Positions 30,673-54,227 of a stretch of DNA of 64,000 bases are shown one piece after another. A program made the position numbers and the translations under genes. Numbering within the stretch: position 1 is the first letter of the stretch; every line of letters starts with the position of its first letter. The DNA is from Acetomicrobium sp. S15 = DSM 107314 (GTDB lineage Bacteria; Synergistota; Synergistia; Synergistales; Thermosynergistaceae): contig NZ_JADEVE010000300.1 of NCBI RefSeq assembly GCF_016125955.1, positions 1 through 64,000 of the forward strand. Direction: 5' to 3'. The notes under the pieces were generated by a model. That model did no database searches and was not told the origin of the DNA. It saw nothing but the letters and a program-made list of their open reading frames with translations.

Positions 30673-31552
30673 AGCCGAGATCAAACTATCAGCTCTATAC
30701 CGGCGCTCATGCACAATGTACAGTCTAATAATTGAAGGTCATTTGCGCACGGTCAAATGACAGTATATCGTGTCACCGAGGAGCTGTATCGCCGCCTATT
30801 ATATCGGCGTAGAGTGTTGAGATTAAACTCGAAGTGCTCGATATAACCGTGAACCGCGAATTGAAACAATGACAAGTTAGCTAAAATCCTTACCGGTCCC
30901 TGGCCCATTTTGCCTTTATGAAAGTGTATACAATCAAGACACCTTCCTAAGGGACTCAAGTTTAAGTATTATTATAATAACAATGATTTGTTCGGCTAAC
31001 TGTGATATTTCCTGTGCGATTTCATGGTGAATGTTGAGTAATCATCGAATATTTTGTTGTCGGTAACATATTTCAATGACATTACGAAGAAGACTCAAAT
31101 AGCAATATGAAGTTGTGAGATGGAGTGTTACAGAGTCTATAATTAAAAGCATTTGTAAATCGCAATAATAGCTCCTTGACATAAGAATCAGTTCCTGGTG
31201 GACAACAATGATTCAATACCTGTTTTTGGTTACATTTCTGTTTTCGGAACTCTTATCAGTATTTGTCGGCTTCTTGATTGTTCTTTCATAGAACCTTAAG
31301 CCTTGCAATTTGAGATGGTCGTTTACTTGCTTAAAATTGTTTATCTGAGGCACTTAGATTTTAATGGTATCCAGCAAAAATATTAATGCATACCATTCTT
31401 AATAAAAAGTGAGAGTTTGAGATGTTTTAGCGTGCCAAGATGCTATAATTTGATTCAAAATATCTAAGGAATTCAACTAAACCTATATTGTTGTGGGTTG
31501 ATACGGACTGATTATACATGACTTAGTAGTATATCAAAAGGGGGCGGATGAA
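30673..31552. other. AT-rich gene-free region upstream of the LIV operon
   Basis: About 0.87 kb with no credible gene on either strand. The base composition is clearly more AT-rich than the flanks. It holds small inverted repeats, e.g. GTCATTTG (30738-30745) with CAAATGAC (30754-30761), and probably the LIV operon promoter near its end (a possible -10 is TATACA at about 31513). No riboswitch family is recognised. Confidence 0.5.
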
Positions 31553-51580: not shown

Positions 51581-52741
51581 TCAGTAGGCCATGCCCAAAA
51601 GCCATAAAGGAATTACTCCAGGCAGAGGGACATCCAGGCCATCTCTTACGACTATGTCGGCTTTTTTGCGGCTTTTGCCCCTACCTCCGACTTCTATGGT
51701 AACGCCATCAACCCAAAAATCGTAGGCCCGCTCGTCGTCGGAGGCAAATATTTTCCTTCCAGCCTCCTCCAGGGCGCAGGCTGCAAAGGCCTCCCTTACG
51801 TTGGCCACGTTTCCGTTTAAAGCATGATAGGTAGATGGGTCGTAGAGAAAGAGCTTGGCTCCCTTAAGATGTGTCTTCGTCTCCATGCCCTTCCTCTTCA
51901 CTACTCGAATCAGACAGATGCGTGCCATGACCTCGATTAGGTCGTAGAGTTTTGCTTTGCCTACTCCCCATTCGCGCGTCAGCGATTCTATATTGAGTAC
52001 AGGAATGGGTGAGGTGGCAAGATATCCGACAACTGCCTGCATGAGCCGCAGGTGATTTTCCGTTACCTGAGGCGTCCAATAAGGGACGTCAGCGAAAAGC
52101 ATCTTCTCAAGGAGGCCTCTCAACCTTTCAGCGTAATGTCCCTCTAAGAAAAAGGGCCTCAAACCTTGGTTTAGGTACTCCTCAAAGGCGGCGAGAAGGT
52201 TTATTGAATTTACAACTTCGCGGAGAATAGAGAGATCGGGATTGAAGGGGTTTAAAGTGAGAAAGGTGCGCCCAAACCTTAAGGCGATGAATTCACGGAA
52301 AGATAGGAGCGGAATCCGCACCTGGATAAACCTGCGAGAGAGGTCTGAAACGCTGGCTTCCAGTGCTGCGCTACTGCTATCAGTGGCCCAGATTTTCTTG
52401 CCAGGGAAGGCGTCGTAAATGGCCTTCAGATGCCGAGGCCACTCGCGGATACAGTGAACCTCATCTACTATAATGCCATCATACCCCGCCGCGAAGGCTG
52501 CCTCGCCCAAATCCCACAATGGGACCGGCACCACCAGGGGATGATCGGCAGGGATATATAATGACCCGCTCGCCTTAGATAAAGCGAGCGTGGTCTTACC
52601 TACGCCTCTCGGACCTAAGACGAGCAAACCTCTGGACGATAGGTCTATCTTATCAAAATGCGGGCGCAATGTTTGAGGCAGGCTCAGGATGAGGCGGCTT
52701 TGAATCACTTGCAGCTTTTGTAGCAGTTCTTCTATAATCAT
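51581..52741 (-). CDS. AAA-type ATPase with a C-terminal winged-helix/DUF4143-like region
   Basis: A 386-residue protein of the AAA_14/DUF4143 group: Walker A GPRGVGKTT at 43-51, Walker B GIIVDEVHCI at 89-98 (D93, E94), and a sensor-1-like region KKIWATDSSSAAL. Residues about 225-290 (LNIESLTREWGVGKAKLYDLIEVMARICLIRVV) look like a winged helix, and the C-terminal part resembles the PD-(D/E)XK-like DUF4143 domain (FWVDGVTIEVGGRGKSRKKADIVV). The cellular role of this group is unknown. Two operator-like palindromes sit upstream (52759-52805). Single-gene unit. Confidence 0.82.
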   Translation of the reverse strand: MIIEELLQKLQVIQSRLILSLPQTLRPHFDKIDLSSRGLLVLGPRGVGKTTLALSKASGSLYIPADHPLVVPVPLWDLGEAAFAAGYDGIIVDEVHCIREWPRHLKAIYDAFPGKKIWATDSSSAALEASVSDLSRRFIQVRIPLLSFREFIALRFGRTFLTLNPFNPDLSILREVVNSINLLAAFEEYLNQGLRPFFLEGHYAERLRGLLEKMLFADVPYWTPQVTENHLRLMQAVVGYLATSPIPVLNIESLTREWGVGKAKLYDLIEVMARICLIRVVKRKGMETKTHLKGAKLFLYDPSTYHALNGNVANVREAFAACALEEAGRKIFASDDERAYDFWVDGVTIEVGGRGKSRKKADIVVRDGLDVPLPGVIPLWLLGMAY

Positions 52742-52758: not shown

Positions 52759-52805
52759 GTTCTATGATAGAACGATTTTAGCACATTTTCGTTCTCGTAC
52801 AGAAC
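52759..52805. promoter_or_regulatory. Two operator-like palindromes upstream of the AAA ATPase gene
   Basis: GTTCTATGATAGAAC (52759-52773) and GTTCTCGTACAGAAC (52791-52805) share the pattern GTTCT-N5-AGAAC and their centres are 32 bases apart, about three helical turns. They flank a minus-strand TAAAAT -10-like box. This is the layout of a cooperative repressor site. Confidence 0.65.
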
Positions 52806-52958
52806 CGAAATATGCTATTTTATTCATATTCGTCCTTTGGAAGTACGCCTTTGATTATGATCAGTTTTGAGACAAAACTATACGGCGTTGGCCCACGGGC
52901 GCTAAAATAGATTTTTGAAAAGGCCTTGCAAAAGGGAGCCTGTGAAGGAGGAGAAATC

Positions 52959-54227
52959 TTGGATAGCAGGTTTGTGGTCATAGCGGATGACCTCACCGGC
53001 GCGAACGACACGGGCATCCAATTCGTGAAGCTCGGGTTTACGGCGGCCACGCTGCTCGATCCTTCGGCGTTGCGCGAAGAGGCCGAATATGATGTGGTGG
53101 TCGTAGACACGGAGTCGCGCAACGTAAGTCCGGATGAAGCGCGCAAGTTGGTGAAAAAAGCCGTCTTTGAACTTCTTCCCCTCTGGGGCGAGGCCATATT
53201 TTACAAAAAGGTGGATTCCACCTTGCGGGGAAATATCGCATCAGAGCTATCCGCTCTGCAGGAGCTTTTAAATCCCTCTTGTATAGTCTTCGCTCCGGCT
53301 TACCCAAAAAACGGCCGCACAACCAGAGACGGCATCCACTACCTTCACGGCGTCCCGGTGGATCAGACGGAACTCGCCAAGGATCCGAGAAAACCTGTAA
53401 CCACGTCCGATCTTAGCGAGCTCCTCGCTTCAGGGGGTTTCTCTTCGCGCCACCTCTCCTTAAAGGTGGTAAGAGAAGGGTCAATACCTGCGGTGCTTGC
53501 GGCAGCCGGAGGGGGGCTTTGCCTTTCTTTCGACGTGGAAGAAGACGACGACTTCACTGCCATTATAAACGGAGTCGCATCGGCGGTAGATGTCGAGCGT
53601 GTGCTGTGGGTAGGGTCTGCGGGATTGGCCGAAGCGCTGGCTGCGCACTCGTCGATCGGTCGGTGCGGGTGTGGTGGGCCAGCTTTGGCCGTCGTCGGCA
53701 GCGCGAGTGCCACAAGCAGAAGCCAACTCCGGAAAGCGGCTTCTGAAGGGCTAGTTACGGTTGTAGCGGTGGACACAGCGCAGGCGCTCCTTCAGAGAGA
53801 AAGGGAACTCGAGCGAGCGTGTGCGCAGGCGGTGAAAAAGCTTGAAGGGGGCAAATCTGTAGCGATAGCCTCCTCCTTGGAAGAGCGGCAGTGGGAAGCC
53901 TCTCGCGAGGCGGCCGCAAGCCTTGCGATATCGATGGAAGAGGTGAGCGAACGCATAGCGGCGTTTCTGGCAGACCTTGCTTCTTCCGTTTTGAGCAAAT
54001 CGCGCGCGAGCGGGCTTTTCGTCACCGGAGGGGATATAGCCGTGCACGTCTTCGGGAGGTTGGGCGCCAAGGGGGCGGCGCTTTTGCGCGAGATCGAACC
54101 CGGCATACCGCTTACGACGCTCCTCGGCGGGGCGTACCACGGCATGCCGGTTATAACGAAGGCGGGGGCTTTCGGCGACGAAAATACGCTCTGTCGCAGC
54201 ATGAAGCTTTTGGTCGGGCGGCGATAG
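52959..54227 (+). CDS. DUF1537 family sugar-acid kinase (four-carbon acid sugar kinase type)
   Basis: A 422-residue two-domain kinase. The N-terminal domain starts with ADDLTGANDTG (9-19), and KVDSTLRGN is the substrate region. The C-terminal nucleotide-binding domain has FVTGGDIAVHV and GMPVITKAGAFGDENTL. Family members phosphorylate D-threonate, L-threonate, D-erythronate or related 4-carbon sugar acids. The usual partner PdxA2/dehydrogenase is absent here. It starts with TTG at 52959 behind AGGAGG. It is probably transcribed with the flavoprotein gene after it. Confidence 0.88.
   Translation: MDSRFVVIADDLTGANDTGIQFVKLGFTAATLLDPSALREEAEYDVVVVDTESRNVSPDEARKLVKKAVFELLPLWGEAIFYKKVDSTLRGNIASELSALQELLNPSCIVFAPAYPKNGRTTRDGIHYLHGVPVDQTELAKDPRKPVTTSDLSELLASGGFSSRHLSLKVVREGSIPAVLAAAGGGLCLSFDVEEDDDFTAIINGVASAVDVERVLWVGSAGLAEALAAHSSIGRCGCGGPALAVVGSASATSRSQLRKAASEGLVTVVAVDTAQALLQRERELERACAQAVKKLEGGKSVAIASSLEERQWEASREAAASLAISMEEVSERIAAFLADLASSVLSKSRASGLFVTGGDIAVHVFGRLGAKGAALLREIEPGIPLTTLLGGAYHGMPVITKAGAFGDENTLCRSMKLLVGRR

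Follow-up and report, generated by a model that had tools for sequence, protein, structure and literature searches.

ATPases of the ParA type Ia and RepA (repABC) kind carry a DNA-binding domain of their own and repress their own promoters through imperfect palindromes that overlap the promoter, and the RepA proteins bind only the parental operators, with ADP favouring specific binding (PMC4492784). Among winged-helix proteins, BrxR represses defence genes via inverted repeats near the promoter (PMC9122601), and the type IV antitoxin AbiEi is a reported autorepressor of defence loci. PDC-S01, a candidate defence family of PADLOC, is described as ranking fourth in frequency among the defences of prokaryotes, most candidates of that set still awaiting validation (PMC12988326), and an AAA 14/DUF4143 gene of Thermus near a CRISPR locus showed a 6.6-fold change with a plasmid present (PMC4406477). 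A survey of the open-access literature turned up no operator or autorepression for AAA_14/DUF4143 proteins. Autorepressing ATPases are known (ParA/RepA), and none was found described for the AAA_14 family matching PDC-S01.

In the window, the whole 64,000-nucleotide stretch of Acetomicrobium sp. S15 DNA analysed here, palindromic sites lie on the promoter of an ATPase's own gene, as in the autorepressing ATPases of the ParA/RepA kind. From the sequence and a structure model, we consider it likely (probability about 0.7) that the ATPase uses these palindromes as operators to repress its own gene. By analogy, the protein is best read as working like ParA/RepA without being a ParA/MinD member: it belongs to AAA_14 and not to MinD/ParA, no ParA/CbiA-type profile is among its Pfam matches up to E 1, and its gene is solitary, with no parB or repB partner seen. 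The sites also differ, in that the palindromes number two or three and keep a pitch of 32-34 bp, and autorepression, measured in those systems, is what we infer here. The likeness to BrxR would lie in repression through inverted repeats; unlike the ATPase, BrxR and AbiEi are dedicated regulators or antitoxins, and the BrxR site is a single pair of 11-bp repeats separated by 5 bp (PMC9122601), versus a three-turn-pitch array here.

Paired palindromes at the promoter of a solitary ATPase gene

Two 15-mers had been noticed earlier, 32 bp apart around the likely -10 of the minus-strand ATPase gene, and this description was confirmed: both are exact GTTCT-N5-AGAAC palindromes (Table 1), and their centres, at 52766 and 52798, are separated by 32 bp, i.e. 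3.05 helical turns (32/10.5), which puts both on the same face of the DNA. Read along the minus strand, O2 comes first, followed by the good extended -10 TGC-TAAAAT, then O1, a GAGGGG-like ribosome site and the start codon ATG of the ATPase; the promoter core TAAAATCGTTCT, with the likely -10, is invariant in the seven-row alignment of close orthologous promoters. The likely -10 is absent from the output of a consensus promoter scanner because the -35 is poor. A poorer third site has a counterpart in G001, which carries GTTTTGAGGTAAAAC at the matching position; the case for it as an operator, made from sequence, is weak because the relaxed motif that it matches is no rarer than its control.

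Table 1. Positions in the window of the ATPase gene, its candidate operators and the neighbouring gene
Feature	Position	Strand	Basis and remarks
Solitary AAA_14 ATPase gene, 386 aa	51581..52741	-	ORF; PF13173 E 2.3e-15
Predicted winged-helix region, residues 228-299	51845..52060	-	Structure model, fold comparisons
O1, downstream palindrome GTTCTATGATAGAAC	52759..52773		Candidate operator, putative role; over the inferred ATPase transcription start; kept in 7/7 close promoters
Likely -10 TAAAAT (TGCTAAAAT between O1 and O2), TGC before it as extended -10	52775..52780	-	Read from the sequence
O2, upstream palindrome GTTCTCGTACAGAAC	52791..52805		Candidate operator; over the -35 position; exactly 32 bp from O1 in 7/7
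Possible third, poorer site GTTTTGAGACAAAAC	52864..52878		Lies 73 bp, or some seven turns, away from O2; relaxed-motif match
Divergent DUF1537-type gene (SBD_N, NBD_C)	52926..54227	+	ORF, profile matches; neighbour of the ATPase

Single sites are near chance, and it is the pair that carries the signal. The window has four single-site matches at no more than one mismatch, including three exact ones, where shuffles gave 1.76, and the 2.44-Mb genome has four exact sites against three for the reversed control pattern. When relaxed to GTTYT-N5-ARAAC, the motif occurs at eight places in this genome (15 for the control), of which two form the O1/O2 pair and a third is the site at 52864. Any two of the four sites would fall within 50 bp by chance with a probability of about 2.5e-4. 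The pair pattern GTTYT-N5-ARAAC-N17-GTTYT-N5-ARAAC, with one mismatch allowed, was searched for in 185 Synergistota genomes and found at seven places in six of them, every one directly before an orthologue of the ATPase; the reversed pair pattern was found at none in the same 185 genomes. It was missing from the other 179, among them G009, where only remnants of the gene are left, and G034, which is of the same genus and has no copy of the gene. The genome-wide motif search proposed in the earlier note thus ties the pair to this one gene; its concern that random hits might be frequent is borne out for the single degenerate motif, as common as chance, and not for the pair. A LexA-type or other regulon was rejected, given only four exact sites in the genome and one pair. 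One further exact site, GTTCTTTCATAGAAC at 31280-31294, stands without a partner 273 bp upstream of an ORF resembling an ABC-transporter binding protein and is probably a chance occurrence.

A DNA search with the intergenic region against 61 genomes (the window's own and 60 relatives) gave matches in six, and these same six hold the close full-length orthologues found by protein searches at no less than 71% identity: the own genome, G001 (91%), G018, G026, G040 and G045 with two copies. All seven promoters have both palindromes at exactly 32 bp, so the motif is conserved upstream of the close orthologues, where its absence had been named earlier as grounds for doubt. Four of the genomes belong to another family (f9) than the window's, and there the pair is intact amid differing neighbour genes; in the three f9 loci with flanks read (L007, L008, L011) the flanking genes are unlike those of the window and DUF1537 is not adjacent. 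The sites therefore go with the ATPase, and co-control of the divergent DUF1537 gene, which had been suggested, is not needed and was rejected as a necessary role. Besides the ATPase, no gene recurs beside the sites in most of the loci whose flanks were annotated or read.

Some neighbourhoods deserve mention in their own right. At 1972453-1972737 of contig C1 of G009 (L020, L026, L038), a decayed remnant of the ATPase gene without the paired operator lies beside a P-type ATPase gene, and this P-type gene also adjoins the intact ATPase copy of G040 (L008), which suggests gain and loss of the ATPase. Small genes near the copies at L019, L007 and L020 look by eye like toxin-antitoxin pairs (nucleotidyltransferase/HEPN, HTH, AbrB-like).

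The ATPase and its predicted winged helix

By profile the window protein is an AAA_14 member (PF13173, 57.2 bits, cut-off 27), with a Walker A motif GPRGVGKTT read in its sequence, and PF13173 was matched in 17 of the 17 members scanned. A weak DUF4143 signal (E up to 1) was seen in 14 of 17 members; the window ATPase scored below the curated DUF4143 cut-off (PF13635, 13.4 against 28.1 bits), and its genome gave no match to the PF13635 profile. The PADLOC model of PDC-S01, displayed with no curated cut-off, matched the window ATPase at E 4.1e-13 (47 bits), and the best E values of PDC-S01 models in three members scanned ranged from 4e-13 to 1.5e-22. The ATPase may belong to the candidate defence family PDC-S01. 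Canonical DUF4143 relatives are without paired sites.

The structure model was built from seven sequences (mean pLDDT 62.7, pTM 0.64) and is best in the C-terminal half and poor in the ATPase N-terminal half. Its helices at residues 228-243, 251-258 and 262-274, with strands at 278-281 and 296-299, make up a predicted winged helix. Next in the chain is a domain of mixed alpha/beta structure, which we take to be PD-(D/E)XK-like. Foldseek matches included SmtB/CzrA and MarR-type repressors (E 0.01-0.1) beside Apaf-1, and VIA-align gave Z 8 for SSO1545 and PABY2304 and Z about 6 for Z-alpha winged helices on residues 228-300; the nearest solved structures to the predicted winged helix include dimeric repressors. 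Such scores are middling and indicate the fold, not the function. In overall AAA plus winged-helix fold, the model resembles SSO1545 (2fna), PABY2304 (2qen), Apaf-1, CED-4 and plant NLR at an equally middling Z of about 7-8, and we know of none of these as an autorepressor. No solved autorepressor ATPase was prominent in the fold comparisons, which are uninformative on the mode of action, and a profile search against solved structures returned nothing better than E 0.097. The winged-helix-like region ascribed to the ATPase in the earlier note is supported at the moderate confidence of this model and resembles the SmtB/CzrA/MarR repressors; the winged helices of STAND/Apaf-1-like ATPases can also mediate protein contacts instead of DNA binding.

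Spacing of the sites in distant homologues

Homologues from 49% down to about 25% identity in Synergistota, Bacteroidota, Campylobacterota, phage contigs and an archaeal plasmid have different palindromes or direct repeats, at 32-34 bp. The distant ones came from plasmid and phage records and viral contigs, with the plasmid matches fetched in part; viral scans with a single protein gave nothing useful. The G054 homologue (49%) has the pair GGACTACGATAGTCC/GGCTTATCATAGACG, 32 bp apart around TGTGCTAAAAT; Parabacteroides L042 (39-40% identity) has three TTTCT-N5-AGAAA-like palindromes at 32+32, and Segatella L049 has TCCCTCATTGAGGGA at 33+33 with an imperfect first copy. Runella L043 and Emticicia L046 share GTTTT-N6-AAAAC at 33, Persicobacter L048 has TTGTGAAATTAAATTCACAA at 32, Aliarcobacter L044 has a 34-bp pair, and the archaeon Methanosphaera (L066) has three copies of TATTTTGTAAAAGATAAAA at 32+32. 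Two viral loci were fetched after the hypothesis had been formed: L076 has three sites at 33+33, and L075 is weaker, with a best self-match at lag 33 and a combined dyad and repeat score that fails to beat its shuffles. Half-sites resemble one another only where the proteins are more than 70% identical (4.54 of 5 letters); otherwise they agree in 2.4-3.1 of 5, and the similarity of operators shows no overall rank correlation with that of the proteins (0.06). These comparisons are best read as a DNA specificity that changes fast on a fixed geometry.

The spacing was measured as the best 20-nt self-match at lags 14-70 against dinucleotide shuffles, in regions of 160 nt upstream plus 5, first for 31 regions and then for 34. 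Over the 34, the mean z peaked at lag 32 (1.91) and was 1.61 at lag 33, with no other lag above 0.45. Lag 32 or 33 was best in 18 of the 34 (1.2 expected) and some other lag in 16; the corresponding control counts were 1, 0, 1, 1 and 2 of 34 for segments drawn at random from these loci, and 3 of 128 for regions upstream of other ORFs. When dyad symmetry was scored together with repeats at 32-34, 20 of the 35 regions came out above every one of 40 shuffles and 15 did not. Among those failing these tests are the nifJ-linked Bacteroidales subclade, Acinetobacter, Thermococcus and Parab4. Near-copies were left out, five in the lag test (G001, G018, G040, G045b and IMGVR41) and the same without G001 in the combined score. 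Inspection by eye preceded the statistic for several of these 34 regions, and not for L075, L076, Thermococcus and the 79 DUF4143 regions.

The five loci of that Bacteroidales subclade (L053, L057, L059, L060, L061) have no 32/33 pair; nifJ is annotated directly downstream of the ATPase in L053, L057 and L059. A TTTTGC...TTTGCAAA-like site occurs in the subclade, with hints of a lag of 40-42 in two loci. The records of L042, L059 and L062 (NZ_OY7257xx), labelled as P. distasonis plasmids, may be chromosomal pieces because they carry the housekeeping genes carA, mnmE and nifJ. Broken or truncated ATPase copies were seen at L064, L067, L058 and L056 (B. finegoldii, P. distasonis, Bergeyella, Persicobacter), some still with spaced repeats upstream.

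Within the broader DUF4143 proteins, PF13635 is present in 83 of the 185 Synergistota genomes. Of the 90 DUF4143 loci, 81 had a usable start and upstream DNA and 79 remained after removal of near-copies; 60 DUF4143 stretches were part of the PF13635 matches listed, taken down the list blind to the upstream DNA. Lag 32 or 33 was best in 11 of the 79 non-redundant regions, where 2.8 were expected. A weak excess of comparable size was also seen at lag 22-23 (e.g. L134); this is close to two helical turns and may be the same arrangement in a two-turn form. On a midpoint-rooted FastTree of 111 proteins (five short or broken ones and four near-copies dropped), a strict paired-site label was carried by 13 of 31 rows in the clade that unites the window family with its relatives in bacteria and archaea and by 8 of 20 in a group of about 450 aa (18 rows and a separate pair); the label leaves out the window itself, with a self-match of 13/20. 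None of the 60 canonical DUF4143 rows carried it, and the 32/33 pitch as a trait of the whole DUF4143 family was rejected. Several long branches meet under midpoint rooting, so these group counts weigh more than the depth of the tree. The 450-aa group (clade B; L149-L157, L165 and relatives) has mostly direct repeats rather than dyads, and TTCGTCGTAAAA-like direct repeats at 33 bp stand before several of its genes.

How the sites may work

The palindromes could instead be what the ATPase works on, an array for nucleation or loading in the manner of iterons or a partition site, lying in the promoter only as the nearest non-coding DNA. Two or three evenly spaced copies do look like a loading array, some relatives are encoded on plasmids and phage contigs, and the fold is akin to that of archaeal and ORC-type AAA ATPases. 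We nevertheless hold this to be unlikely: the Synergistota sites bracket the core of the promoter, only L051 among the annotated plasmid loci has a replication gene beside the ATPase, and the ATPase gene is otherwise solitary.

An unlinked repressor, the alternative offered in the earlier note, is disfavoured by our results; it would be encoded by the host and read the palindromes to silence a horizontally acquired gene. This reading draws on the winged helices of such ATPases, which may bind protein, on operator binding by the ATPase being so far a proposal, and on the sites overlapping or abutting host-type promoters in Bacteroidota and Synergistota. But the pair is without a second target in the 185 Synergistota genomes and missing where the ATPase is missing, and each phylum would need a repressor of its own, all arriving at a 32-34 bp pitch on different letters. 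With the pair so tied to the ATPase gene and its geometry kept in distant homologues, a host repressor seems improbable.

That the palindromes form hairpins in a leader RNA, acting in attenuation or translation, is very improbable. O1 would be partly transcribed, but O2 lies upstream of the -10, and the sites of Segatella L049 and Parabacteroides L042 lie upstream of the likely -7, which we assign from the Bacteroidota motif TAnnTTTG. A fixed helical pitch is moreover a property of DNA, and an RNA element was rejected, the RNA-family search giving no match above the gathering score. Functionless chance palindromes, which would fit the single motifs being as common as control patterns, can hardly explain an exact pair in seven of seven close promoters and nowhere else, with a pitch that recurs across phyla, and are contradicted by the lag statistic unless the sampling was biased.

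Autorepression by the ATPase, which the earlier note had called conceivable, is the best-supported of these readings, given a pair exclusive to the gene, a geometry that is kept and a predicted winged helix, from which we infer the binding itself. Each palindrome would be bound by an ATPase dimer via the winged helix, and two or three dimers would touch on one face of the DNA to form a cooperative complex over the -35, the -10 and the start. The nucleotide state of the ATPase (ATP or ADP), or a ligand, would decide whether the complex holds. The pitch would be conserved because it is set by the protein oligomer, and the letters read by the recognition helix would drift by lineage.

More tentatively, the solitary STAND-like ATPases, a large family that spans bacteria and archaea and takes in much of PDC-S01, might silence themselves through two or three winged-helix dimers at a three-turn pitch, until a trigger such as phage DNA or replication stress changes the nucleotide state or strips the protein off the DNA and the gene is turned on. 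Each lineage would have a private operator code, and copies in one cell would therefore avoid cross-silencing. A built-in operator of fixed pitch would offer a first concrete molecular activity to look for in the abundant AAA_14/DUF4143 ATPases, pointing to DNA binding, oligomer geometry and nucleotide control. A promoter reporter could reveal the inducing signal, and the upstream region could predict the DNA target of each ATPase.
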